Notes: generated by a model from the letters alone, not told the origin. Counted from the stretch's first letter, positions 33,103-62,246 are shown. The stretch is DNA of 64,000 nucleotides from Klebsiella pneumoniae (GCA_945873095.1 CAMCBU010000004.1:62001-126000), one strand, 5' to 3'. Made by a program: numbers and translations.

Positions 33103-33118
33103 TGTCGTTTAAACGACA
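33103..33118. repeat. 16 bp palindrome TGTCGTTTAAACGACA, copy 1
   Basis: Perfect copy, preceded by cgaa as in three other copies. It lies in non-coding DNA between the tRNA-Phe fragment and the terC-like gene. Confidence 0.8.
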
Positions 33119-34542: not shown

Positions 34543-34854
34543 ACTGGGCCCGCTTGGATTCGAACCAAGGACCAAGGGATTATGAGAAGACAGGACTAAC
34601 TCAATCCCATTGGCCATCAATCACTTACGCACTCCGAAATTCCGTGTGTAAGAGAATGTGTATGTAACAATCGTGTTTTTGACAAGTTTTTCAGGGGTTT
34701 TGACACTTTTCAATTCTACGCCGAACAACAGCCCTCCTATTTCGAGGTAACAGATAAACAGTTTTCTTTGAGCGATAAAAGAGTCGTCAAAAACGAGGGG
34801 TGACGAACCTACTCAGTCGCTGCGTTGAGCATCACGAATGTCGTTTAAACGACA
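34543..34854. repeat. Direct repeat copy 1 (312 bp) carrying a tRNA-Met 3'-half
   Basis: This block is nearly identical to 37,670-37,984. It begins with a minus-strand tRNA-Met(CAT) 3'-half (34,545-34,586: anticodon loop CTCATAA through T arm and acceptor strand, no encoded CCA). It continues through a well-conserved non-coding stretch (tcacttacgcactccgaaat) and ends in the 16 bp palindrome. The 5' half of the tRNA is missing. This resembles an integration-site repeat extended by shared element-end DNA. It flanks a 3.1 kb segment with two genes. Confidence 0.8.
34839..34854. repeat. 16 bp palindrome, copy 2
   Basis: Perfect TGTCGTTTAAACGACA at the end of direct repeat copy 1. A variant copy lies 38 bp further along. 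Confidence 0.8.
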
Positions 34855-38517: not shown

Positions 38518-39030
38518 CTAAGAGGATGTTTGACCTGCCGGCTGATCCGCTCGCCATGATCCGGAGTAGATCACCTCACAGGCAGGACCGTACAACGTGC
38601 CCTCGCCATGACGCATGTCGTCCTTCCATGCGCCCTGATAAATCTGGCCGTTCGAGTAAAAGAACGTCCCTTCGCCGTTCCGCTGACCCGACGAGTAAGT
38701 GCCTCGAAAAGTGACGTAGTTGTCGATCGTGGCGGCTGCGACGAGGTGTAACTCGAAAAGACATTCGCACTCATCTCTGGTGTTCTCAAGGCAGGGCGCG
38801 CTGACCGGCTTCGTCATCGGCGGAGCGAGCATGGCTTTGCTCGGGGGCTCACGTCCAATGACACACCCACCCACACCCCATCCGTCAGGCGCGCCGTGCT
38901 TCATCGAACCCGACCAATAGCAGAACGGATACTCTGCAGCGATCTCGATGTCTTGTCCGATGTTATGACTCGGTATCGGTAACGCCACGAAGCCAATCGC
39001 GGCGACGAACAAAAGTATCGCGTACTGCAC
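38518..39030 (-). CDS. MORN-repeat protein, exported
   Basis: This 170 aa protein has an N-terminal hydrophobic signal (AILLFVAAIGFVALPIP). A first MORN-like unit, YWSGSMKHGAPDGWGVG, is followed by clear MORN repeats: FRGTYSSGQRNGEGTFFYSN and YQGAWKDDMRHGEGTLYG, then a partial YSGSWRADQPAG. Between them is a segment with several cysteines (ENTRDECECLFEL). MORN repeats bind lipids or act as scaffolds; the bacterial function is unclear. It sits in a same-strand row with the macro gene and the protease lipoprotein, whose stop is only 4 bp upstream. Confidence 0.8.
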   Translation of the reverse strand: MQYAILLFVAAIGFVALPIPSHNIGQDIEIAAEYPFCYWSGSMKHGAPDGWGVGGCVIGREPPSKAMLAPPMTKPVSAPCLENTRDECECLFELHLVAAATIDNYVTFRGTYSSGQRNGEGTFFYSNGQIYQGAWKDDMRHGEGTLYGPACEVIYSGSWRADQPAGQTSS

Positions 39031-43298: not shown

Positions 43299-46200
43299 AT
43301 GACAGAGCGGACATCATTGCTCACTGCTGCATTAGAGCAGCTACGTCTGAAACTGCTTGATCTGACCGGCCGTAACCGTCTCGTTAATTTCAAGCATACG
43401 GCAGGAAGATCGCTGCAGTTTGTCCAAGGTAATCCCGAAGCAATTTATAACAAGCTGGTGGAAGGAACAGGTCGTAGTGCCATCAACATCCTCGGTCTTT
43501 CCGAACCACCCCGTAAAAACTGGATCGAACGCAACGGACGGTTACAGCGACCCGACCCGCGCGAATGGGCGACCGTCGATCGTGTTCCGACTTCTTACGA
43601 CATCGTGTCCGGCACAGACGGAATAGCGGACGCGAATGTTCGAGCATTGATGTACCCGGATGATCTAGCTAAGCACTGCCGCAAGATCGAGCGCGAGGCA
43701 AAATTAGCCATTGAAGAAACCGGCGCGAACATGCTTTTTATCGTACTCGGGTTTCTTGAGTTCCCGGATCAACGTAATAGCGATAACAAGTTTCTGGCGC
43801 CTTTAATCAGCATTCCCGTGTCGCTTCAAAAGCGTGAAGTGGCTGGCATTCAGCAGTTCTCTGCTCAATACACTGGCGATGACATCACGGAAAATCTATC
43901 TCTCAGAGAGAAGCTGCGTAACGATTTCGAAATCGTATTGCCAGAGCTATCAGAAGACGAGATTGATGTTGAAGGCTATTTTAGAAGTATCCGAAAGGTA
44001 ATCAAGCATCAGCCTGAGTTCGCAATCCGAACTCGCGTGTCACTTTGCTTGCTTAGCTTTAGCAACATGCTACTAGTCAGGGACCTCGACCCCTCAAAGT
44101 GGCCATCTATTGATGATAAAAATGCGTTACTCGATCACCCAATAGTCAAGGAGGTATTTGAAGGTCGGGCAGATGCTGGCGGGGCTGCATTGGGAATAGC
44201 GGAAGAACATCCTGTTGAGGAAGGCCCCGGTACAGAGATCCCACTTATCTATGACGCAGACAGCTCACAACACAGCGCGCTCGTCGACGTTCTGGCACTA
44301 AACAGAAACCTCGTCATTGAGGGTCCGCCAGGCACTGGCAAATCGCAGACGATCACGAACCTCATAGCTGCATGCCTCTCGAAAGGAAAGAAGGTCCTAT
44401 TTGTTGCTGAAAAACTGGCAGCGCTCGAAGTCGTCAAAAACAGACTGACTCTCGCCGGTCTCGATCCTTTCGTTTTAGAACTACACAGCAATAAAACGAG
44501 CAAGAAACGAGTCCTTGAGGAGCTTGAAGCTCGAATCAAATTTCGGCCGAGTGTCTCCAAAGAACTACCGAGACTTCAAGAACAGATGGAGTCACACCGC
44601 CGAGACCTAAAGGCGTACTCCGATCTAATCAATTCAGTGTCATGTAACTCCTTCGGGCTCACGCTGCATCAAATCATGTGGCGAGCTGAGAAGTATCGTC
44701 AAAATCTCAAGACGGACGAAACCTCGCTGACTCAGATCGCCGTCGAGGATGCGTCTCAAGTTTCCGCGGTTGAGTTAAGTCGTCGGATGGAGCTCCTCGG
44801 GTATCTGGCCGATCAATATCGCGCCACAGGGGGATTTGATTCGAATTGCGCGTTTTGGGGCTTCTACCCAAAACCGTTAGTCCCTGGCGATGAAATTCGG
44901 CTTTCAGCTATTTTCAAAGAGGCGGAGACTACCAGCGAGAACCTTGTCCATTTCGCCGATGCCTTAGCCGGGGCATTGGGTGAGAGCATCCATAACGTAG
45001 GCGTCCAGTATTGTGAAAAGCAGATCCATACGCTTAATCCGCTGATCGCGGCCGCGAATGCCCGACTCCCGTTTGAGCTAACCCCTACGTTATTCGCGGA
45101 CGATGACTCCGGCCGTGCCGCCTCTGCCGCGCTGAGCACCTTCTCGAGCCGAGTGACTCGGTATCACGAACTGGAACCTAGCGTAACCTGTGCACTGACA
45201 GACGATGCGAAGGTTAGTAACGAGTCCCGTGCGGGGCTCCAAACCCTGCAACGGTCTGCCGATAGCCTGGGCGCCGCCTTGGCAACACTCCACGATATTG
45301 AGTCACTAGCACAGCGGCTTTCTGATTTGGCGGAAAGCCTAGGAGCGGCTGCGGCGAAGCTGGAGACTTTCTCCCAGCGCCTTCAGATCCCGTTCGATGG
45401 TTCTCGCGAATCTCTGAAGCGACTCGCAGAACTGACCGCACTTGTCAGCGAGCCACCCGAGCAGCATCTACATCTTTACTCCCCAGCCATTGGTCGGGAT
45501 GGAGCCACTCAGGCGATCGAAGCGCTTGATGCTCTTCAGTCGCAGTGGGTTAGCCTTGAGGAGTCACTCAATCAGTCGCTGTATCTCGATGTCCTTCCGC
45601 CTGAATCGGAGATTCGGGAGGCAATGCTGACTCTTCGTGAAGGCGATGCTTGGTACCGAGTTTTTCAGAGTCACTGGCGCCGTGCGATCCGACTCCACAA
45701 ACGCCTTCTACGCATAAAGCAACGATCACCGACTCTAGATCGACTAATTCAGCTTGAGCAAATCCTGAAGCTGATTGACTTGAAGCGCCAGTGGCAATCG
45801 TCAACTACGTGGAGAGATTACTTAGGGATACAAGGCTCTGAAGCGGCCGTGCCACTCGATGGCTATCTCGCGCTCGCGAAATGGAGCCACTCCTTAAAAC
45901 GGTCACTTGACGAGATTGAGGCCACGCTGATCAGACCGGAAGATTTCACCGCTGAAAGGATTCGCTTGCTTCGGCGTGAGTTTTCTGCGAACAGGGGCGA
46001 TGTTTCATCCGCGGTATCGGCGTTCGGCAGCCTGCACGACCTGCTGCCTCGGCTCGTTGACTTCAACGGTGGCAGTACAATTTCAAAAACTATCGAGAAG
46101 TCCGTCGAATTAAAAAATGCGCTTTCGGCACGCCTTCCATGGCTTCGAGCCAATGCGAGAAGCACTGCGAATTTCAATAACGTCATCGCTGGCTGTGATG

Positions 46201-48725
46201 CAGCTTTAGAGCGCCACGAGCTGAGGAATCTGATCGAGTCAGATCAAAACGTCAAAAATCTCCTCAGCACCACTTATCACGGTGTCCAGACAAACTGTTT
46301 GGATGCGATGGAGGTTTTGCGGATTGGTCAGAGCTTAGATTCGCTCGACTTATCTCCTCAGGTGAAGACCCGACTCAGGAGCGCGCATCTTCTCGACACC
46401 GCGAAGATACTCGTCGCACGCCTCGCAGATGTCCTTGGCGAACTTCGCAGTGTTGAGGCGTTTAGCAACACGCTCTCCGAGTTCGGAGTCTTCGATCTTG
46501 CTGACTGGGTTGGCGATGACCCTAATGGCGATATACAGAGCTTTGCGCGAGCGTTCCGCGATTCGTCGAAAAAGGCCGCTGCTAGTCCGGATCTTCTGAT
46601 CCCTTGGGCGCTTTACATCGCGCGACGAGGAGAAGCGGTCGAGGCTTCTCTGAGTGTCTTTGTAGAGCTACTTGAAGAACGACGCTTAGATCCGAACGAG
46701 CTTACAGATGCCTACGCGTACTGCGTATACAGTTCGATTACTCGGATGGCCTTCAGAAAAATCTCACAGCTTGGAAGATTCACGGGACTGAAACATAACC
46801 AGATCCGCGAAGAGTTCCAACGACTTGATAAAGAACTCATCTCGCTACGCGGAAAGGCTGTTGGACAACAGTGCGCTCGGACGATTCGAATCCCGCCCGG
46901 ACGCAGCGGAGCGCGGCTCGACGACAAAACCGAGATGGTTCTTTTGAACTATCTGATACCGCAGCAGAGACCGCGGATGCCTGTCAGGAAAATGCTGAGC
47001 CGTGCCGGAAGCGCAGTCCAGGCACTTAAACCTTGTTTCATGATGGGCCCGCAGGCGGTGGCTCAGTACCTGGCACCGGGTGCCGTTAAGTTTGATCTCG
47101 TCATTATGGACGAAGCCTCGCAGCTGCGGCCCGAGGAGGCTATCGGCGCGATCGCTCGTGGCGGTCAGTTAGTCGTGGTTGGTGACCCGAAGCAATTACC
47201 ACCAACCTCATTCTTCTCACGGATGACCCAAGATGGTGACTCGGGCGAGGAACAGTTCTCGACGACCGATGCTGAAAGCATCCTTGATGTCTGCTCGTCG
47301 CACTTTCATCCGACTCGAGCGCTTCGGTGGCACTACCGCTCGCAGCACCACTCCCTGATCGCTTTCTCAAATCACAACTTTTACCAAGGCAACCTTGTCA
47401 TATTCCCCTCCCCTTACGGTCAAGGCGGACGATTGGGAGTTCGAGCGACTTATCTCGCGGATGCGGTCTACGAGCAGCAAACAAACATACGGGAGGCTAA
47501 GCGCGTCGTAGATGCCGTCGCTGAGCACATCGCGACACGCCCCGGCGAATCGCTGGGTGTCGTCACCCTCAATATTAAGCAGCGCGATTTAATCGCTGAG
47601 CTGTTAGACGAGCGACTCAAGACGGCGCCTGGGGCCGATTCGTATCGTGATCATTGGACCACCGCGGGGCAACCGCTCTTCATCAAGAACCTAGAGAATG
47701 TTCAAGGCGATGAACGTGATGCGATAATCATCTCGACAACTTTCGGAAAACCGCAAGGAGCAAATGCGGTAAGACAGAACTTTGGTCCGATCAGCCGACA
47801 GGGTGGATGGCGTCGACTAAACGTGCTCTTCACTCGAGCCAAGAAATCGATCGCGCTGTATACCTCGCTTCGTCCAGAAGACATCATCGTGGACGGAGCG
47901 ACGCCTGAGGGCACTAAAGCACTTCGAAATTACCTTGAATACGCTCGCACGGGTTTGTTGCCCACGATACAAGAAACGGGTCGCGATCCTGATAGCGATT
48001 TTGAAATTGCAGTCATGGATGTCCTAAAGCGACGCGGCTATGCGGTTACACCTCAGCTTGGGGTTGCGGGGTATCGAATAGACATAGCGGTCAAGCACCC
48101 GGATGCGCCGGGCGCGTATCTGGCAGCCATCGAATGCGACGGCGCCTCCTATCATTCAGCACTTTCCGTGCGCGACAGGGATCGTATCCGGCAAGAGATT
48201 CTTGAGGCTTTGGGATGGCGCGGACGAATTTGGCGCATCTGGTCAACCGATTGGTTTCGCACGCCGAGGCAGGAGACTGAGAAATTGCTCGGTTTCCTCG
48301 ATGATCTCCGACGTAACTGGCGCCCGGAACACACCTCAAGCGATGCGTGGATTGAGGAGGGACAGGCGCCTAATGCTACCGTCGATGATTCACAATTTAG
48401 ACCCGCAGTCGGTGATGTTCCGACACTCTCCGAGACTGATCGAAAAACCGTCAGCGCCGCATTGATCGATACTGGTGAGGACCTAGAAGTTGAAGTGGGC
48501 GATCTCGTCCGTTACCTAGACAAAGCCCGACCCGATGACGTTTTGTCCGTTCAGATAACCAAGGGCAAGGATGACTTCACCAATGGCATCGTGAATGAAA
48601 GTCGACCTCTTGCCCAAGCGCTACTTGGTGCCGTCATTGGAGATGAAGTGGCTTTACATCTCGTTGGACAGCCCCCAAAAAAATTATTGGTCATTGAGAT
48701 AAGACGGCTTAAATCAGATATCTAA
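43299..48725 (+). CDS. Giant DUF4011-type SF1 helicase with Vsr-like nuclease and GreA/B-like C-terminus
   Basis: This 1808 aa protein starts at ATG 43,299. Residues 1-300 match the DUF4011-type N-terminus (LRLKLLDLTGRNRLVNFKH). A superfamily-1 (DNA2/NAM7, COG1112-like) helicase follows: Walker A EGPPGTGKSQTITNL (K about 348), then a ~900 aa helical insertion, Walker B LVIMDEASQLRPEEA (D about 1271), VVVGDPKQLPPTSFF, WHYRSQHHSLIAFSN and NVLFTRAKKSIALYT. A Vsr/MTES_1575-like nuclease follows: GYRIDIAVKHP (D about 1595) and AIECDGASYHS (E about 1612). The last ~75 residues (VGDLVRYLDKARPDDVLSVQ to ESRPLAQALLGAVIGDEVAL) align by eye with the GreA/GreB C-terminal domain. It is likely a defence effector acting on foreign nucleic acid. 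Lower GC than the core. Confidence 0.85.
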   Translation: MTERTSLLTAALEQLRLKLLDLTGRNRLVNFKHTAGRSLQFVQGNPEAIYNKLVEGTGRSAINILGLSEPPRKNWIERNGRLQRPDPREWATVDRVPTSYDIVSGTDGIADANVRALMYPDDLAKHCRKIEREAKLAIEETGANMLFIVLGFLEFPDQRNSDNKFLAPLISIPVSLQKREVAGIQQFSAQYTGDDITENLSLREKLRNDFEIVLPELSEDEIDVEGYFRSIRKVIKHQPEFAIRTRVSLCLLSFSNMLLVRDLDPSKWPSIDDKNALLDHPIVKEVFEGRADAGGAALGIAEEHPVEEGPGTEIPLIYDADSSQHSALVDVLALNRNLVIEGPPGTGKSQTITNLIAACLSKGKKVLFVAEKLAALEVVKNRLTLAGLDPFVLELHSNKTSKKRVLEELEARIKFRPSVSKELPRLQEQMESHRRDLKAYSDLINSVSCNSFGLTLHQIMWRAEKYRQNLKTDETSLTQIAVEDASQVSAVELSRRMELLGYLADQYRATGGFDSNCAFWGFYPKPLVPGDEIRLSAIFKEAETTSENLVHFADALAGALGESIHNVGVQYCEKQIHTLNPLIAAANARLPFELTPTLFADDDSGRAASAALSTFSSRVTRYHELEPSVTCALTDDAKVSNESRAGLQTLQRSADSLGAALATLHDIESLAQRLSDLAESLGAAAAKLETFSQRLQIPFDGSRESLKRLAELTALVSEPPEQHLHLYSPAIGRDGATQAIEALDALQSQWVSLEESLNQSLYLDVLPPESEIREAMLTLREGDAWYRVFQSHWRRAIRLHKRLLRIKQRSPTLDRLIQLEQILKLIDLKRQWQSSTTWRDYLGIQGSEAAVPLDGYLALAKWSHSLKRSLDEIEATLIRPEDFTAERIRLLRREFSANRGDVSSAVSAFGSLHDLLPRLVDFNGGSTISKTIEKSVELKNALSARLPWLRANARSTANFNNVIAGCDAALERHELRNLIESDQNVKNLLSTTYHGVQTNCLDAMEVLRIGQSLDSLDLSPQVKTRLRSAHLLDTAKILVARLADVLGELRSVEAFSNTLSEFGVFDLADWVGDDPNGDIQSFARAFRDSSKKAAASPDLLIPWALYIARRGEAVEASLSVFVELLEERRLDPNELTDAYAYCVYSSITRMAFRKISQLGRFTGLKHNQIREEFQRLDKELISLRGKAVGQQCARTIRIPPGRSGARLDDKTEMVLLNYLIPQQRPRMPVRKMLSRAGSAVQALKPCFMMGPQAVAQYLAPGAVKFDLVIMDEASQLRPEEAIGAIARGGQLVVVGDPKQLPPTSFFSRMTQDGDSGEEQFSTTDAESILDVCSSHFHPTRALRWHYRSQHHSLIAFSNHNFYQGNLVIFPSPYGQGGRLGVRATYLADAVYEQQTNIREAKRVVDAVAEHIATRPGESLGVVTLNIKQRDLIAELLDERLKTAPGADSYRDHWTTAGQPLFIKNLENVQGDERDAIIISTTFGKPQGANAVRQNFGPISRQGGWRRLNVLFTRAKKSIALYTSLRPEDIIVDGATPEGTKALRNYLEYARTGLLPTIQETGRDPDSDFEIAVMDVLKRRGYAVTPQLGVAGYRIDIAVKHPDAPGAYLAAIECDGASYHSALSVRDRDRIRQEILEALGWRGRIWRIWSTDWFRTPRQETEKLLGFLDDLRRNWRPEHTSSDAWIEEGQAPNATVDDSQFRPAVGDVPTLSETDRKTVSAALIDTGEDLEVEVGDLVRYLDKARPDDVLSVQITKGKDDFTNGIVNESRPLAQALLGAVIGDEVALHLVGQPPKKLLVIEIRRLKSDI

Positions 48726-51926: not shown

Positions 51927-51950
51927 CTGCCTAACAAATTTGTTAGGCAG
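51927..51950. promoter_or_regulatory. 24 bp perfect palindrome, terminator arm or operator
   Basis: CTGCCTAACAAA is followed immediately by its exact reverse complement. A run of eight T begins at 51,955. It may act as the terminator of the phosphoesterase gene, although the zero-length loop is unfavourable, or as an operator for the next promoter, whose -35 it overlaps. Confidence 0.6.
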
Positions 51951-51969
51951 CTGATTTTTTTTGTATACT
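51940..51969 (+). promoter_or_regulatory. Promoter for the structured RNA and small-gene cluster
   Basis: A -35-like TTGTTA (51,940-51,945) and a -10-like TATACT (51,964-51,969) are separated by 18 bp. The -35 lies inside the right arm of the 24 bp palindrome. The predicted start is near 51,976, exactly where the first paired strand of the structured RNA begins. Confidence 0.5.
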
Positions 51970-51976
51970 CTCCCCT

Positions 51977-52113
51977 GCATCAAGAGACGGGACTTCGGTC
52001 CTCGCCAACCTGCCAACTCGGGCAAGGTGGTCGCCGCTAAAGCGGGATGTGGCTGGTCAGGCAAATAAACGAGGCCATGATTAGCAACATTGAACGAGCC
52101 TGACTCGTGATGC
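51977..52113 (+). ncRNA. Strongly structured RNA, leader or independent ncRNA
   Basis: A closing stem pairs GCATCAAGAG (51,977-51,986) with CTCGTGATGC (52,104-52,113), 9 of 10 positions. Inside are a GGAC-TTCG-GTCC tetraloop hairpin (51,990-52,001), a bulged hairpin CCAACCTGCC/GGGCAAGGTGG (about 52,006-52,030) and CCGC-TAAA-GCGG (52,034-52,045). A perfect 7 bp stem GTCAGGC/GCCTGAC (52,056-52,062 with 52,098-52,104) follows. No ORF of length covers it. It ends 28 nt before the start of the 94 aa gene. I do not recognise it as a known RNA family. Confidence 0.6.
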
Positions 52114-53315: not shown

Positions 53316-53380
53316 CGGGAGACGATTCCCGGAGTGGCTCACCTCACGAGCCGGGGGAGTTCACCAAATTGCGGCCCCGG
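53316..53380 (+). promoter_or_regulatory. Three consecutive hairpins in the leader of the 53,416 gene
   Basis: CGGGA/TCCCG (53,316-53,331), GGCTC/GAGCC (53,336-53,352) and CCGGGG/CCCCGG (about 53,351-53,380) form one after another upstream of the Shine-Dalgarno GAGGAGAAG. No T-run follows, so it is a structured leader and not a terminator. Confidence 0.5.
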
Positions 53381-53415
53381 GTATATCGCCCAAACCCGCT
53401 AAAGAGGAGAAGACC

Positions 53416-54042
53416 ATGTCTGAATCAAAAAAGGCGCTCGACCTGTCCTACCGACCGGCGAGCTATTTCTGGCCCATCACCCACGAGACGCACGCGATCG
53501 CTGCCATCAAAGGCGAACGGCGGCGCAACGCCATCCGCGAAGCCTATGACACCAACCGGGTAACGGTACTCGATGAGTACTACTCGACCCCCGTTTTAGA
53601 AGAACAAGATCGCCGTGCACTTGGCGCAATACACCCGTCTTTCATGGGTGGCGAATATCTGCCCAACCGACACGAGACCGAAGTCGAGATCGCGCGTATC
53701 AATATCGACTCGACGACGAGCGATGTGACCTCGATCTATGCCAAGGCCGGCAAGAACAGAATCTATTACCGAGTAGTCGATGAATATAACGGCGATACTT
53801 TGAACGAGAAGCGCACCCGCAGTTCGAGGCAGCCCTTGACGCTTGATCAGTTGGTTGAATTTTTCCTCGGTGCGTGGTCGCTGAAGGACGTGCTCGACGG
53901 TAATGACCTCAACTTAGAGGAGGCGCATGACTTTACCCATCCTTCCTCCGAGTTCTATCCGCAGTTCAGCGCAGCGATCCGTGCGCATATTGACAGTTGG
54001 TATCCCGCCAAGGACACCGATGAGGAGCAGGACGATGAGTGA
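53416..54042 (+). CDS. Hypothetical protein (208 aa)
   Basis: ATG 53,416 has a strong Shine-Dalgarno (AGAGGAGA). The protein begins SESKKALDLSYRPASYFWPI, has EVEIARINIDSTTSDVTSIY and a helical segment LTLDQLVEFFLGAWSLKDVL, and ends in an acidic tail (KDTDEEQDDE). No family is recognised. Its end overlaps the next gene by 8 bp. Confidence 0.7.
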   Translation: MSESKKALDLSYRPASYFWPITHETHAIAAIKGERRRNAIREAYDTNRVTVLDEYYSTPVLEEQDRRALGAIHPSFMGGEYLPNRHETEVEIARINIDSTTSDVTSIYAKAGKNRIYYRVVDEYNGDTLNEKRTRSSRQPLTLDQLVEFFLGAWSLKDVLDGNDLNLEEAHDFTHPSSEFYPQFSAAIRAHIDSWYPAKDTDEEQDDE

Positions 54043-54232
54043 GGACAAAAAGCCGAATCGAATCACCGCGCATTACGCGACCGACGAGGACTATAAGCGG
54101 ATGAATTTCTATACGATCGGCACGCTATACCGGGCAGACAATCTAACTCCCTACCAAGAAACCGATGGCGCTATTTCCTGCCGCAAAGACGGCCTTGTAC
54201 CGCCATTGCCCGATAGTTCGAAACCTATTTAA
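54035..54232 (+). CDS. Hypothetical small protein (65 aa)
   Basis: ATG 54,035 is preceded by GAGGAGCAGG within the end of the previous gene. The protein starts MSEDKKPNRITAHYATDEDY and ends in a Pro-rich tail (KDGLVPPLPDSSKPI). It is probably translationally coupled. No family recognised. Confidence 0.6.
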   Translation: MSEDKKPNRITAHYATDEDYKRMNFYTIGTLYRADNLTPYQETDGAISCRKDGLVPPLPDSSKPI

Positions 54233-54353
54233 TAAACTTCAGCTTAATCTCGGTACCGAGGGGCAAATCTCCAAATCACTTTAGATTTCGAAAACTTTGA
54301 TATAACAACTGACACGCACTGCGCAATCAGACTTTTCTTGGAAGCGACTACGG

Positions 54354-54980
54354 TTACTCTTCTAAAAAATCGTCAACTAGTGCACCGTATACCCAACGAC
54401 CGGAATGAGTTACTTCGCCGTCTTTATCAAAGATGGTTCCCTCTCCATGGAACTCGCCATTACGAAATTCACCAACGTAGCGACTGCCATCGGGCCACGT
54501 ATAGATGCCATCTCCATTTCCAACAAAGCGCCCGGCCTGAAATTCACCCTCGTACGAGGATCCATCAGAAAGCCTTAGACAGCCTCGCCCATGGTACTTT
54601 CCGTCGAAAAAACCCCCGACATATTTACCGATGTCATGGTAATTAACGTACTCGCCGTGACCGTGAAATTTGCCGTCTTTGAATGTTCCTCGATAAAAAT
54701 CAGAGTTTTTCTTAAATAAGATTCCTTCTTTAACTTCACCGCGTTCAAATCTCCCTACGAATTTTTTCGTTAGGTCTGGATAAAGTAAGGTACCTTCGCC
54801 ATGCGGTAGGTCGCCGTCAAATTGCCCGGTATATACACACCCATCCGGAAATATTGCGGTCGACGGCCCGGGCTCTTCTGTCTCGGGATCACTTAGCTCA
54901 GGGACATCAGTTTCGTTACTAGAACTATCGATTACTTTGTCTGGATCGAAGTACTTACGAACTTTTTTGTCTTTTTTCAT
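54354..54980 (-). CDS. MORN-repeat protein, cytoplasmic
   Basis: The start is placed at ATG 54,978-54,980 with the Shine-Dalgarno GGAGGG (208 aa). The first ~45 residues are charged. Then at least six MORN repeats follow, for example YTGQFDGDLPHGEGTLLY, FYRGTFKDGKFHGHGEY, YEGEFQAGRFVGNGDGIY and YVGEFRNGEFHGEGTIF. No signal peptide is seen, unlike the MORN protein at 38,518. MORN proteins are scaffolds or lipid binders; the role here is unknown. AT-rich compared with neighbours. Confidence 0.8.
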   Translation of the reverse strand: MKKDKKVRKYFDPDKVIDSSSNETDVPELSDPETEEPGPSTAIFPDGCVYTGQFDGDLPHGEGTLLYPDLTKKFVGRFERGEVKEGILFKKNSDFYRGTFKDGKFHGHGEYVNYHDIGKYVGGFFDGKYHGRGCLRLSDGSSYEGEFQAGRFVGNGDGIYTWPDGSRYVGEFRNGEFHGEGTIFDKDGEVTHSGRWVYGALVDDFLEE

Positions 54981-55183
54981 TCGTCCCTCCAAATTGTCTT
55001 ACCAGATAGATTGGTAACGATTTGAGATCTATTTCTTATTCCCGACTCCACTCAGATCCCTAACGCAGACTGTTGTTGAAAGCACAAAAGACTACTCTAA
55101 GCCGCCTTTCAGATTGAGTCGTCCTTCCGTGATATTACAAGACAGGCGCTATCCAACAACCGTCGTTTCTACATGATAGATTT

Positions 55184-55198
55184 GGACCCTAACGGTCC
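55184..55198 (+). promoter_or_regulatory. Hairpin directly upstream of the Shine-Dalgarno of the 55,212 gene
   Basis: GGACC-ctaac-GGTCC ends 3 nt before GAGGA at 55,201 and 13 nt before the ATG. It could control translation initiation. Confidence 0.5.
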
Positions 55199-55211
55199 AT
55201 GAGGATCTCCC

Positions 55212-55808
55212 ATGTCCGACGATGTCCAATCTATACTTGAACTTTTGGCACGTCCATCAGCCAAATCAGAAACTTTTATCCGGCGTTATGGTGATTTGAT
55301 CGATGCGCTTGCATCAAAGTTCGGCGATTTTTGCGGTCCCGATGCAGCGCAGCAGTTCATTGGGTACTTAGCCGAGAACCAATGGTCGGCGCTTCGGCAA
55401 TGGCTATCTCAAGCAGATAGGGTATCTCTCGAGAAGTTTCTGGCCGCAAAAGCTGAGGTCTTCTTCAGAGAACAGCGAAAAACATTAATGGCAAAGGCCA
55501 TGGGCGGCACTCCATGGGCGGAAATCATTCAATACGCTGAAAACCTATCTCCTGGCTACCGAGCGCTAGCTCAGTATTGTTTGGTTGAGGGGCTATCGGG
55601 GGCAGCGCTTAAGAAAGCGGTGCGTTCTGACATGCGATGCCGTCTTGAGACGACGGGAGCAATATCTACCTCTCGATCGAATTTGCTACTAGTCCTGCGA
55701 GCTTGTTGCCGGCCCGACCATGTGGAGATGATCGACGCGGTTCTAAGGCTCCGACAACGTAGTGGCCGTCGCCCCAAGGCACCAACGAGATCGGACGCCA
55801 GCCAGTAA
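55212..55808 (+). CDS. Divergent sigma-70-like protein
   Basis: This 198 aa protein starts at ATG 55,212. Its N-terminal part resembles sigma region 2: ETFIRRYGDLIDALASKFGD, AAQQFIGYLAENQWSALRQW, FLAAKAEVFFREQR. The C-terminal part reads like region 4 (LSPGYRALAQYCLVEGLSGAALKKA, then SRSNLLLVLRACC). The pattern is that of an ECF-type sigma factor, but with a Cys-rich and odd recognition region, so promoter use is uncertain. A hairpin precedes its Shine-Dalgarno. A second sigma-like gene lies 283 bp downstream. Confidence 0.55.
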   Translation: MSDDVQSILELLARPSAKSETFIRRYGDLIDALASKFGDFCGPDAAQQFIGYLAENQWSALRQWLSQADRVSLEKFLAAKAEVFFREQRKTLMAKAMGGTPWAEIIQYAENLSPGYRALAQYCLVEGLSGAALKKAVRSDMRCRLETTGAISTSRSNLLLVLRACCRPDHVEMIDAVLRLRQRSGRRPKAPTRSDASQ

Positions 55809-56025
55809 AGTCATTCCGTCGCCGGCCGTCCGAGACGAGAACCGGGTGCCGTGACAGCCCCCCTAGCACCCCTCTGGGACAATCGAGTTCCTAGCTGTTG
55901 CTTTCTACGGTTCCACCCGTGAATTCCCGATACTTTTCGATCATTTCACGGAGTGAACGGGCTGCGTCTCTTGCCGAAATTAAAATTTTCGTAAGTTCCC
56001 GTTTTTAATAAATCGGGGTGTTTCT

Positions 56026-56062
56026 AGCACTCGGTGCTTCAATGGTTCTACTCCGATTCGGA
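56026..56062 (+). promoter_or_regulatory. Two hairpins upstream of the 56,092 gene
   Basis: AGCAC-tcg-GTGCT (56,026-56,038) and CTCCG-att-CGGAG (56,050-56,062) follow each other before GAGGAAAC, the likely Shine-Dalgarno. No T-run follows. Confidence 0.45.
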
Positions 56063-56091
56063 GCAAGGAACTGAATACGAGGAAACTTGCG

Positions 56092-56724
56092 ATGACTAAC
56101 ATCTCTGCTGCCACCCTGCCATCTAACGTCGTTGACATCTTCAGCCACCCACGTCACCCCGTTCATGCGGATCAGCGGATGGTCGAAGGTGCTCTGCGCG
56201 GGGATGAGTCGGCGATCCAGAAGTTGTGGATTCGCCTTACGCCCTACATCGAAAGCTTCGCCTCAGATCCGATGTGGGAGAGCCACGAATCGGCTTTACA
56301 GCACGGCCGTTCGTTAATTCAGCAAAACCAGTTTGTGGTACTTCACAAGTGGAATCCCAAGGCCCGGTCGCTGACTCAGCACGTAGACTATTTTCTTCGA
56401 GAAGCGCTTCGCCGTGAGCGACTCGCACGACGACAGCAAGCGCGAAAGGATCCGAGTATCGTCAATGCGATCGAAGAAAGCGTTGAAGAACTGCCCGCAC
56501 AGCATTATTGGATTCTGAAGAAGATCGTCAAAGATGGTGTGCGCCCGAAGAAGATCATGACGATGCTCAACGAGTGCCCAGAAGTTCAGATTCGATCAGT
56601 AGCCTCGATTGGTACGACGTATAGCCGCGCACTGAAGCGCCTCCACAGAGTATGTCCCGATCAGTATCGCGACTCTGTCGGCATGTTTATCAATTCACGA
56701 CAACGCAGCGGTCGATATCGTTAA
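56092..56724 (+). CDS. Second divergent sigma-70-like protein
   Basis: This 210 aa protein begins ISAATLPSNVVDIFSHPRHP, then has a region-2-like stretch (MVEGALRGDESAIQKLWIRL, FLREALRRERLARRQQ) and a region-4-like one (LPAQHYWILKKIVKDGVRPK, VASIGTTYSRALKRLHRVCP). Overall it reads like an RNA polymerase sigma factor with a degenerate middle. It is followed by a clear terminator, so it forms its own transcript unit. Whether it is a sigma factor or a related DNA-binding protein cannot be decided by eye. Confidence 0.5.
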   Translation: MTNISAATLPSNVVDIFSHPRHPVHADQRMVEGALRGDESAIQKLWIRLTPYIESFASDPMWESHESALQHGRSLIQQNQFVVLHKWNPKARSLTQHVDYFLREALRRERLARRQQARKDPSIVNAIEESVEELPAQHYWILKKIVKDGVRPKKIMTMLNECPEVQIRSVASIGTTYSRALKRLHRVCPDQYRDSVGMFINSRQRSGRYR

Positions 56725-56751
56725 TTCGCTTCACTGAAGTAAGACCCAATC

Positions 56752-56777
56752 AACGCCCCGCATGCGGGGCGTTTTTC
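56752..56777 (+). terminator. Intrinsic terminator
   Basis: ACGCCCCGCA followed directly by TGCGGGGCGT and then TTTTT: a perfect GC-rich stem with a T-run, 28 bp after the sigma-like gene stop. Confidence 0.85.
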
Positions 56778-56849
56778 ATTCTGCGTCAATAACGTGTTTT
56801 GGCGATTCCGCCATCTCACTCTCATCTCTTGAGACGCTCTCTTCACCAG

Positions 56850-56925
56850 ATTGCTAATGGCTTAGCAATCGGTGCGATACGAATGTCTCGTATCGCCATC
56901 GTGAATTTCGACAGCAATCTGTCGA
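56850..56925 (+). promoter_or_regulatory. Three perfect hairpins in tandem upstream of the AAA operon
   Basis: ATTGCTAA-tggc-TTAGCAAT (56,850-56,869), GCGATACGA-atgtc-TCGTATCGC (56,874-56,896) and TCGACAG-caat-CTGTCGA (56,908-56,925) lie in a row. They end 3 nt before the Shine-Dalgarno AAGGAG (56,928-56,933). All arms pair perfectly. They may be operators, a structured leader or protein-binding sites of an origin-like region. Confidence 0.6.
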
Positions 56926-56940: not shown

Positions 56941-57789
56941 ATGACGACGAAGACGAAAGGGAAAACTGAAACAGCCGGGATGCCTGCGATCTCTGTTGAT
57001 TCGAGTTCCATGACGGTAACGACCCGCGAAGTCGTTGAGGAAGGCACCCCCATTGAGACTTGGGCCGAGTCCATCGTGCGCGAGCAGCGCTCGATTACTC
57101 GGGATGAGGTGTTGGCCCACTTGGGGGATCTTGAGGCGCGTCGCAAGGAAGTCGAGGGTGGCATTTTCCGGCGTGCGCATCACGCCGTGCACTTGCTCCT
57201 CGCTGACTGCTTGGCACTTGCGCAGCTCGATGAGTCGCTCGATCCCGAGCAGGCTCGCGATCGGGCGCTCGATGCCTTTCTCTCAGCCCGAGAGCTCGCG
57301 AGCAAAAAGGACGAGCCTATTTTCTCAAAGGCAATCTCAGCCGTGTTCGGAGAACTGCATCGCTCTCGAGTCAGTACCTATCGCACGGTGCTGAAGGCGG
57401 CGAGTCAGGCGGGGATCACCGCTGCTGCACTGCCCGCTTGGATCGAGCAGCAAGGGGGTGTTCAGGAAGTTCGTCTGAGTGCTGGCGGTACGGGTGGTAC
57501 GAGCTCGTCAGAGATGGCGAACCTCACGCTCGAGTACCTCCTCGACAAAGGCAGTCTCTATGCCCTGCAGAGTGACGCCCTCTCGAAGCAGTTGACGATC
57601 GAGAGTAATGGCAAGGAGGTAGTGCTGGTGGCTACCAAGCAGCGAGATGGAACGTTGATGGTGCATGCAGCCATCGAGGATCCCAATTGCGTGAAGAAGG
57701 CGATCGACGCCTTTCAGCGCAAGAACCAAGAAGCGATCAAGGAGTTCAAGTACGAGCTCAAGTATCGCCCGGGTCTGCGTGCTGCGTAA
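56941..57789 (+). CDS. Hypothetical DNA-binding-like protein, first gene of the AAA operon
   Basis: The start is placed at ATG 56,941 (282 aa), 7 nt after AAGGAG; the ORF-track GTG lies one codon earlier. Residues 60-130 are helical (RSITRDEVLAHLGDLEARRK, RRAHHAVHLLLADCLALAQL). A segment HRSRVSTYRTVLKAASQAGITAAALPAWI looks like a helix-turn-helix. After a Gly/Ser linker (LSAGGTGGTSSSE) the C-terminal domain is beta-rich (LTIESNGKEVVLVATKQRDG). No family is recognised. It is followed by the AAA gene after 95 bp. A ParB-like or partition-related role is possible but unsupported. Confidence 0.65.
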   Translation: MTTKTKGKTETAGMPAISVDSSSMTVTTREVVEEGTPIETWAESIVREQRSITRDEVLAHLGDLEARRKEVEGGIFRRAHHAVHLLLADCLALAQLDESLDPEQARDRALDAFLSARELASKKDEPIFSKAISAVFGELHRSRVSTYRTVLKAASQAGITAAALPAWIEQQGGVQEVRLSAGGTGGTSSSEMANLTLEYLLDKGSLYALQSDALSKQLTIESNGKEVVLVATKQRDGTLMVHAAIEDPNCVKKAIDAFQRKNQEAIKEFKYELKYRPGLRAA

Positions 57790-57884
57790 GCGCTGATCGG
57801 ATTGGGGGCGGCGGTGAGACCTTCATTGCCGCCCCTCTATCCCAGCTTCCCTATTTGCCCTCTTCCCTCGCCGGAGCACCTTCA

Positions 57885-59366
57885 ATGACAACGTCTGATT
57901 TCACCCCTCAATCCGTTCACGACATCATCGTCTCATCGCCGCAGTCACGATCGACACTGCAACGACTGGTAGCGGGAACCTATCCACTTCCTTCCGAGCG
58001 CTCGGCAGTGATCGTGCTCTCGGGACCCTATGGCAGCGGCAAAACCTGTCTTGCGCGATTGCTGCCAGACGCTCTTGAGAGAGCCTATGGATCACCACCC
58101 TCATCGACCAACCCAGTGCCGTACTCCTATTTGGATTGTCGTTCGGGAGCCAGCGGGCGTTCCATCCTCGCGCGCTTAGAGGAACTGACGACCTTTAGCC
58201 CAGCGGGTAATGCCAGTCGGTTCTACCTCATTTGTGATGAGATCGATAATCTCTCGAAGTCCGCTCAAGAAGCGATCTATCAGCTGACCTATCGATCCAA
58301 CATCGTTTGGATCCTGACGACGAACTATCGCTCCCGTATCGACTACCGTCTGCTGGCTACGGGAATCGATATCCTGTTGGACGCTCCCTCTAAAGCGCAT
58401 TTGGCCAAGCTCGCCATCAATATTGCTAAGCACTTTGACCTCAGTATCTCGACTGAAGAGGCTCATCAAATCGCTCTCGCCTGTCATGGCTCATGGCGAC
58501 AAGTGTCGGAACGGACGCTCCAAGCGATCAGTCGAACACTATCGCCGCAGAAAACGGTGCAAGCCTATGGCGATAACCGACGACGATACGATCAGGTCGT
58601 AGAGAATGCTGCACAGACCCCAATTCAGCAACTTAAGCCCCGTTATCTCGATGAACTGATCTTCGACGATAGCGAATCACGCGATGTCGCCTATCGCATT
58701 GCAAGTGGTATCGCCCAGCCACCTGCTGATCGATGCTTCGGGATATTGATTTATGGTGAGCCGGGTACCGGTCGAAAGACGCTCGCCAAGCTCTTACCGA
58801 CAACCATCGAAGGGATCGTCTATCAGCATCACGATCCGCTCTTTGAATCGGATACGGTGATCTGCCGTGATGGTGTTTTGGGCCTGGCAGATGTTAGCCA
58901 TGTATCGATGATGCTCAATCACGCCGTGATCGGTAACCCGAGCGGTCTGCGCTATGTGACATTGGTCGATGTCGAGAAGCTCAGCCCCGGCGCTCAGCAG
59001 GATCTGAAGTCTCTGATGAATCGGCCTCGAGTGGTATTCATTCTTATTGCTAATCGACTGACGGGTATCGATGCGGGCGTCCTTGATCGATGCGCTCATC
59101 GCATCTATATGCCCTGGCCCGAGACAACGCTACTGAAGTCTTGGATTGATCGTGTTGCACACATCACCAAACCGACCGTATCCACAGCGGAACTCAACTC
59201 GCTTTACTCACTCCCCGTACGCGGCTTTGCAAAGCTCGCCGCGGCGATTGACGATGCACTCGCACCTCAACCGCCCGATAACTTTCATCAGATAAATGTA
59301 TCTCGCGCATTTACCGGTATGGATCAAACCGCGCCCATCACCCATGACGAGAGGATGGCGTCATGA
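57885..59366 (+). CDS. Tandem-AAA ATPase, clamp-loader-like
   Basis: The start was moved to ATG 57,885 (493 aa). The first AAA module has Walker A LSGPYGSGKTCLARLL and Walker B FYLICDEIDNLSKSAQEAIY, then a sensor-1-like WILTTNYRSRID. A second module begins near LKPRYLDELIFDD, with IYGEPGTGRKTLAKLL, where the usual lysine position is Arg followed by Lys, no clear Walker B (LVDVEKLSPGAQQDL), and VFILIANRLTGIDAGVLDRC. This active-plus-degenerate tandem recalls clamp-loader or RFC-type subunits. The ATG of the next gene overlaps its stop (ATGA). Probable role in replication or repair of the element. Confidence 0.75.
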   Translation: MTTSDFTPQSVHDIIVSSPQSRSTLQRLVAGTYPLPSERSAVIVLSGPYGSGKTCLARLLPDALERAYGSPPSSTNPVPYSYLDCRSGASGRSILARLEELTTFSPAGNASRFYLICDEIDNLSKSAQEAIYQLTYRSNIVWILTTNYRSRIDYRLLATGIDILLDAPSKAHLAKLAINIAKHFDLSISTEEAHQIALACHGSWRQVSERTLQAISRTLSPQKTVQAYGDNRRRYDQVVENAAQTPIQQLKPRYLDELIFDDSESRDVAYRIASGIAQPPADRCFGILIYGEPGTGRKTLAKLLPTTIEGIVYQHHDPLFESDTVICRDGVLGLADVSHVSMMLNHAVIGNPSGLRYVTLVDVEKLSPGAQQDLKSLMNRPRVVFILIANRLTGIDAGVLDRCAHRIYMPWPETTLLKSWIDRVAHITKPTVSTAELNSLYSLPVRGFAKLAAAIDDALAPQPPDNFHQINVSRAFTGMDQTAPITHDERMAS

Positions 59367-60030: not shown

Positions 60031-60630
60031 TCAAATCAGCTCAACGGCTTTTCTCACAGTCTGCGGATCGGTATCGATGTAACGCTGTAGCACCTGAAGA
60101 CTGCGATGTCCCGAGAGCTGCATCAAGACACGAGCCGCCACACCTTTTGCAGCCAAGTTCGTAATGAACCCTCGCCTGCCGCTGTGTGAACTCGCTCCTG
60201 AGATGCCGGCGCCCCGGTAGATGTAATGGAAGACCTGGGCGCCGGTATTGGGTGTAAACCCACGATCGGGATGCTTTTGGGTGGTAAAGAGCGCGCGATT
60301 CAGATCCGTCAGCAACACGGGCTTTAGATCCTTCGTATTGAAGCGATTCAGTAGATACTGACGGATCTCGTCTTGTGCTTTCTTGGGAAGCAATACGACT
60401 CTGCCCCGATCTCCTTTCGTCTGACTGGGCTTGAGACGAATCTCGTCTTTGATCTCCGCTTCCGGGGTCAATACATCCCCCAGTCGTATAGAAACCAATT
60501 CTCCGACGCGCATTCCGGTGTAGTGCGATAGCAATACCAGGGCGCGATTGCGGGATGCGTGTTTACGCCCCGCGATGAACAACAACACTTTTCGAACTTC
60601 TCGATCCGACAGAACTCGGGCTTGTGACAT
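60031..60630 (-). CDS. Tyrosine recombinase of FimB/FimE size
   Basis: This 199 aa protein is a catalytic tyrosine-recombinase domain without the usual N-terminal SAM-like/core-binding domain. The catalytic set is complete: Arg in YTGMRVGELVSIRL (R41), Lys in PSQTKGDRGRVVL, His-Arg in SSHSGRRGF, His in LSGHRSLQVL and Tyr in QRYIDTDP. The length matches FimB/FimE-type invertases more than phage or island integrases of ~400 aa. It may serve the element's integration, or invert a local segment. It lies inside the island, 22-27 kb from the tRNA-fragment repeats. Confidence 0.85.
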   Translation of the reverse strand: MSQARVLSDREVRKVLLFIAGRKHASRNRALVLLSHYTGMRVGELVSIRLGDVLTPEAEIKDEIRLKPSQTKGDRGRVVLLPKKAQDEIRQYLLNRFNTKDLKPVLLTDLNRALFTTQKHPDRGFTPNTGAQVFHYIYRGAGISGASSHSGRRGFITNLAAKGVAARVLMQLSGHRSLQVLQRYIDTDPQTVRKAVELI

Positions 60631-62231: not shown

Positions 62232-62246
62232 CGTCCACTCAGGACG
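62232..62246 (+). promoter_or_regulatory. Hairpin upstream of the 62,273 gene
   Basis: CGTCC-actca-GGACG ends 14 nt before the Shine-Dalgarno GGAGG (62,260-62,264), similar in style to the hairpin at 55,184. Confidence 0.4.

Follow-up and report, generated by a model that had tools for sequence, protein, structure and literature searches.

The leader of gene 53416, in a 64,000-nucleotide stretch from a genome deposited as Klebsiella pneumoniae (the window, G000:C4:62001-126000; 2.49 Mb in 69 contigs), very probably contains a riboswitch with an H-type pseudoknot, belonging to the SAM-II/SAM-V type and named for S-adenosylmethionine (SAM). On sequence grounds it appears closest to SAM-V and would act as a translational OFF switch. 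The same reading, in which we have high confidence, treats the structured leader of gene 56941 as a separate case, and the short hairpins ahead of three further genes of the island (55212, 56092 and 62273; genes are named by their start positions) as incidental. An original prediction had seen in the hairpins of these five leaders one repeated design, suggestive of shared translational or leader-level control.

Architecture and covariation of the 53416 leader

The element (Table 1) combines three hairpin helices, with P0 directly against P1 and P1 directly against P3, with a pseudoknot, P2, and a two-pair helix, P2a. Following P2, U53400, A53401, A53402 and A53403 correspond to U47, A48, A49 and A50 of SAM-V, and the GG of P2a falls inside the Shine-Dalgarno sequence GAGGAG (53404-53409); no terminator was found 3' of the element. 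Relatives share a conserved leader block, GA(U/G)UUCACC(A/G)AAUUGCGG, followed by a variable GC-rich hairpin and then CCGCUAAAGAGGAG. As judged from sequence comparison, this block is the SAM-II/SAM-V aptamer core (AUUG...CUAAAGAGG), with the Shine-Dalgarno sequence lying within the pseudoknot.

Table 1. Positions of the riboswitch candidate, the leader hairpins and associated features in the window.
Feature	Position	Strand	Remarks
SAM-V-like riboswitch, whole element through Shine-Dalgarno (candidate)	53336-53412	+	covarying family; R1 96.6 bits
P0, extra 5' hairpin GGCUC-ACCUCAC-GAGCC (middle hairpin, GGCTC-N7-GAGCC; hairpin 2 of the original prediction)	53336-53352	+	GC/CG/GU and CG/UA/GC in 12 sequences, every cell paired
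P1	GGGG 53353-53356 with CCCC 53375-53378	+	position 4 GC/CG/UG, position 1 GC/CG
L1 loop, enclosed by P1	53357-53374	+	
Third strand GAGUUC	53357-53362	+	G53359 = SAM-V position 8 (usually U); U9, U10 retained; metY SAM-V numbering
P2 pseudoknot	GCGG 53371-53374 with CCGC 53396-53399	+	covaries GCGG/CCGC, GCCG/CGGC, GCAG/CUGC, GUGC/GCAC
P3, between P1 and P2, GGGU-AUAUC-GCCC (weak hairpin, GGGT-N5-GCCC)	53379-53391	+	relatives GGGC/GCCC, GGGA/UCCC, CGAC/GUCG, GGCC/GGCC
P2a	CC 53364-53365 with GG 53406-53407	+	CC/GG in 8/8 A2 sequences
53416 leader, upstream hairpin	53316-53331	+	CGGGA-N6-TCCCG; outside aptamer core; hairpin 1 of the original prediction
Putatively controlled gene 53416, 208 aa	53416-54042	+	uncharacterised family
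Promoter-like site ahead of SAM-I/IV aptamer	51940-51969		
SAM-I/IV aptamer ahead of open reading frame 52142	51972-52078	+	RF01725, 57.6 bits
Hairpin ahead of 55212	55183-55199	+	TGGACC-N5-GGTCCA, 6 bp; chance level, p=0.08-0.29
Two hairpins ahead of 56092	56026-56038, 56051-56063	+	each 5 bp, loop 3; at or near chance, p=0.03-0.30
Intrinsic terminator of 56092	56752-56773	+	separates 56092 transcript from 56941 leader
Three tandem stem-loops ahead of 56941	56849-56870, 56874-56896, 56908-56925	+	9, 9, 7 bp; distinct from riboswitch
Hairpin ahead of 62273	62232-62246	+	5 bp, loop 5; chance level, p=0.24

Comparison with relatives, sought in 196 related genomes with the source genome counted in, supports these helices. 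In alignment A2, comprising eight sequences aligned with MAFFT, 97.9% of the P0, P1, P2, P2a and P3 cells are paired and covariation reaches 0.261 against 0.112 in shuffled data (0/500), while sliding the partners by one column lowers pairing to ~50%. In a larger set of 14 sequences arranged by helix, P0, P1, P3 and the pseudoknot P2 are paired in 223 of the 226 cells, with a covariation of 8.08 versus 2.31 when the 3' arms were dealt among the sequences (0/2000); P3 is present in all 14, with GC, CG, AU and GU pairs. From alignment A3, RNAalifold yielded the P1 region alone, with two base pairs competing with P0 and P3, since pseudoknots lie outside its model. These alignments place the 53416 leader in a covarying RNA family with at least 14 aligned members. 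Covariation in relatives, which the original prediction had named as a check on its hairpins, is borne out for P0, as a helix of this riboswitch family.

A search with model R1, built from the eight A2 sequences, found new copies in other genomes (L080, L081, L082, L099, L100, L101, L102 and L107); independent copies score 41-80 bits, and in the R1-found copies an open reading frame starts 7-9 nt (in one case 19 nt) past the core, except at one truncated locus. Matches below ~26 bits (L083, L085-L089, L103), some of them read by eye, were excluded from the counts. L109, a pattern match from the viral collection, lies inside a coding region and was taken as a chance match, and L084 and L104 both look like SAM-II. 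Genome G039 carries five copies of the element (L066, L067, L099, L100 and L101): two stand ahead of 53416 homologues, one ahead of a MoxR-like gene and two at other loci, one of which has a gene of unknown family.

Genomic context and proposed mechanism

The genes and RNAs surrounding the element point to SAM. The SAM synthetase gene metK lies directly downstream of it in L018, L026 and L107 (Pfam S-AdoMet_synt confirmed in L018 and L107), and in L070, a locus covering L018, a 53416 homologue directly follows metK. The element lies 30-36 nt behind the end of a SAM-I/IV aptamer in five loci (L017, L028, L080, L081 and L082), with an intrinsic terminator between the two in L017, L028, L080 and L081. 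At L102 the element follows a terminator-like stretch, itself preceded by a weak match to SAM-II (24.6 bits), and the 53416 homologues L019, L021, L022 and L029 follow SAM-I/IV alone. In the window, the SAM-I/IV aptamer, the sole copy in the genome, stands 1.26 kb upstream of the element with genes between (Rfam gathering threshold for RF01725, 41.1 bits). One contig of the viral collection holds SAM-I/IV together with two copies of the element.

Relatives of 53416 occur in 14 of the 196 genomes, including a paralogue in its own. The family is ~200 aa long, and its invariant residues include P74, G78, G79, E89, E91, S99, T101, D103, E123 and Y124. The protein and its relatives had zero matches in Pfam, PHROGs, NCBIfam, PADLOC and PDB sequences, and a fold search with the AlphaFold2 model of 53416 (predicted local distance difference test score, pLDDT, 77) returned no match. 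Neighbouring or co-controlled genes encode MoxR-like AAA proteins, a VWA protein and calcineurin-like phosphoesterases, the MoxR-like protein of L099 giving a bpMoxR match just below the cut-off. The family is tied to SAM through putative regulation only. In L082, from position 1571, the same riboswitch stands ahead of a fusion in which a 53416-type domain follows a longer N-terminal part of unknown family. The gene adjoining 53416 in the window (54354-54992, minus strand) encodes a MORN-repeat protein; another MORN-like open reading frame, recognised by eye, spans 38518-39030.

By homology, the 53416 leader would bind SAM, close P2a and shut off translation. At low SAM, P0, P1 and P3 would be formed while the third strand and P2a stay open, with GAGGAG reachable by ribosomes. 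At high SAM, the P2 triplex would close round the ligand and P2a would pair 53364-53365 with 53406-53407, leaving 53416 untranslated. In the tandem relatives, SAM would stop transcription first, through SAM-I/IV and its terminator, and translation second.

Relationship to known SAM riboswitches

The element resembles SAM-V (RF01826; Poiata et al., 2009; structure in PMC6061858) in its 4-bp P1, 4-bp pseudoknot P2 and P3 hairpin, in the retained pocket residues U9, U10, U19, U20, G21, U47, A48, A49 and A50, in a CC/GG P2a that occludes the Shine-Dalgarno sequence (PMC6061858), and in its linkage to SAM/methionine genes, here metK. The metY SAM-V structure has the triples U20:A48.U9 and U19:A49.U10, with U47 for the SAM adenine and A50 for the methionine end (PMC6061858), and the family RNA can supply these triples, U47, A50 and the short P2a between loop and Shine-Dalgarno. 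It differs from SAM-V in the additional covarying 5' hairpin P0 set against P1, in an L1 turn that is shorter or longer, and in its hosts, which are GC-rich Gammaproteobacteria as opposed to the marine Alphaproteobacteria and Bacteroidetes of SAM-V.

Several points weigh against a SAM-V-like riboswitch at 53416. The window copy has G at position 8, where most relatives have U, and scores 15.5 bits with Rfam SAM_V, far under the gathering threshold of 41 bits; the relatives L082 (34.9, the best), L028 (29.3) and L108 (27.8) also fall below it, and at gathering threshold Rfam gave zero matches at any of the five leaders. The nested fold of the leader is unexceptional (z=-0.99), as would be expected if the pseudoknot matters. 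The 14-sequence alignment was fitted to the helices by hand and includes some close relatives; the eight-sequence A2 figure is the more independent because of this hand-fitting. Finally, the reading offers no reason for a SAM switch to govern a protein of unknown function.

Could the element at 53336-53412 belong to SAM-II, or to some sister class, instead of being SAM-V-like? The third-strand sequence and the GCUAAAGAGG core are like those of SAM-II (RF00521, SAM_alpha), GAUUU...AUUGC...GCUAAAGAGG recalling the SAM_alpha consensus, and there are SAM-II-like copies near relatives (L013, L022 and L104). SAM-II lacks P3, which the family possesses, and acts mostly by transcription. The window copy reaches 9.3 bits with SAM_alpha (threshold 36), only its 3' part being aligned, and for this copy as well as L028, L082 and L108 the partial scores are higher with SAM_V. 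Since P3, the 4-bp P2 and the occluded Shine-Dalgarno sequence are the SAM-V arrangement (PMC6061858), we consider a SAM-II assignment unlikely, while noting that SAM-II and SAM-V share the same pocket and that their cores superpose (PMC6061858).

A second alternative retains the SAM-V-like fold but supposes that G8 has led the window copy to sense another ligand or to lose sensing. In SAM-V, U8 contacts U47 (PMC6061858). U8 is kept in L014, L015, L017, L028, L081 and L107, and C18 occurs in L082 and L099, whereas G8 is shared by the window copy, L016 and L080. Because L016 and L080 belong to separate clades in the tree of the proteins, G8 recurs and persists. Rare SAM-aptamer variants with new ligands offer a precedent (PMC10853860), and G8 together with the score far under the SAM_V threshold means that affinity or ligand could differ. 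Yet every other pocket residue among U8, U9, U10, A18, U19, U20, G21, U47, A48, A49 and A50 is kept in the window copy, hydrogen-bond donation is also possible for G, and the Rfam SAM_V consensus gives position 8 in lower case, so that a change there appears tolerated and need not abolish binding. A changed ligand or a loss of sensing is accordingly improbable in our view.

The pairing of switches also has relatives among known systems. Pelagibacter has tandem bi-mechanism SAM-II/SAM-V riboswitches, and a 2022 survey listed 149 SAM-II/SAM-V tandems, seven SAM-II/SAM-I-IV and two SAM-I-IV/SAM-II (PMC9481103). Like the Pelagibacter tandems, our relatives place a transcriptional SAM switch with a terminator before a putative translational one; unlike the tandems in that survey, they pair SAM-I/IV with a SAM-V-like RNA (five loci). 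In a search of open-access papers, SAM-I/IV followed by SAM-V was absent from the survey's list, although the two SAM-I-IV/SAM-II cases there could belong to this kind. A far-reaching extension would combine a sporadic SAM-responsive set (the 53416 family, MoxR-type AAA ATPases with VWA neighbours, calcineurin-like phosphoesterases and an accessory metK) under stacked SAM-I/IV and SAM-V-like riboswitches with a G8 branch of altered ligand preference; as a whole, this is a long shot.

Hairpins in the five leaders

Every hairpin named in the original prediction was found in the sequence, as was the absence of T-runs after them; at 56941 the number of stems held, although they measure 9, 9 and 7 bp and not 8, 9 and 7. 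The count covered hairpins with a stem of at least 5 bp and a loop of 3-6 nt in leaders of 100 nt. These were compared with 2000 dinucleotide shuffles and with 95 intergenic control leaders from this genome, drawn from the window and from stretches totalling 400 kb; the control gene starts came from a simple script and not a gene finder. At least one such hairpin occurs in 46 of the 95 ordinary leaders. Only the 56941 leader stands out, with three hairpins and 25 stem pairs (p=0.0005), a total reached by 0/95 controls, while the 53416 leader does not by this count (p=0.33). The upstream hairpin of the latter is kept in L016, with a loop shorter by one, and is absent from L014 and L015.

The 56941 leader is real, constrained and structured, and leader-level control is plausible. 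The stretch 56849-56925 folds into three stem-loops, and the prediction also pairs the start codon (z=-4.07). Viral contigs, plasmids and the 196 relative genomes gave only one relative of 56941 (L004, in G015), the closest named relative of the gene being from a Nevskiaceae metagenome-assembled genome; the host is on this basis presumed to be a member of that group. Between L004 and the window the leader diverges by 5.6% against 17.4% at third codon positions of the gene (p=2e-4), with changes at 2/50 stem and 3/13 loop positions (p=0.055), and the terminator of 56092 is identical save one inserted loop base. One may tentatively picture a leader that acts on translation or stability, its third stem and an enclosing CAUCG/UGAUG pairing holding the start codon until some protein or condition opens them, a proposal that we put at slightly under an even chance: this single relative shows zero compensatory changes, its hairpin 1 gains a mismatch, and the conservation would also fit palindromic DNA sites.

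At 55212, 56092 and 62273 the hairpins are incidental and the leaders ordinary, that of 56092 diverging by 7% against 8.1% in its own coding sequence. For these three, and by count also for 53416, hairpins are as frequent as in shuffled or control leaders, given p values at or near chance. That a series of simple hairpins preceding strong Shine-Dalgarno sequences gives the island genes shared translational control is very improbable: all five leaders do carry hairpins and as a set surpass random control leaders (p=0.001-0.01), yet 56941 accounts for this excess, the other four showing no clear difference once it is removed (p=0.06-0.08), the riboswitch family of 53416 is not common to the other four, and sequences, stem lengths and positions vary. 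We see no sign of a design common to the five genes and reject it, the 53416 and 56941 leaders being unrelated in sequence and architecture. What survives of the proposed control is a probable SAM-V-like riboswitch at 53416, in place of generic hairpins, and a plausible leader-level control at 56941; the sharing does not.

Other features of the island

A palindrome, TGTCGTTTAAACGACA, occurs at 33103, 34839, 34877, 37969, 50428 and 61688, six sites with at most 3 mismatches against 0.01 expected; all of the genome's copies with at most 1 mismatch lie within 33-62 kb of the window. Similar 90-base flanks surround the sites at 34839 and 37969, where minus-strand genes have their 3' ends. It is possibly an island-specific operator or recombination site. 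A Polynucleobacter-1 RNA (RF01718; 61062-61202, plus strand) scores 51.7 bits (threshold 37), and the stretch is ~91% conserved in L004. On the plus strand, 43299-48725 encodes a 1808-aa protein with strong PADLOC matches to the PDC-S37 and Hhe anti-phage proteins, and 57882-59366 an AAA ATPase with two P-loop regions that matches phage clamp-loader PHROGs, near a phage-type integrase of 199 aa (60031-60630).

Implications

Hairpin counting alone would dismiss the 53416 leader (p=0.33), and it is comparison that brings out the probable riboswitch; such copies slip below Rfam thresholds. If the assignment is right, SAM-V-type sensing would extend to the Gammaproteobacteria with an added helix, and a two-step SAM-I/IV plus SAM-V-like switch would join the known combinations. 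An uncharacterised protein family would thereby be linked to the SAM level, and the natural G8 branch would provide a ready test of the contacts that set ligand choice in the pocket.

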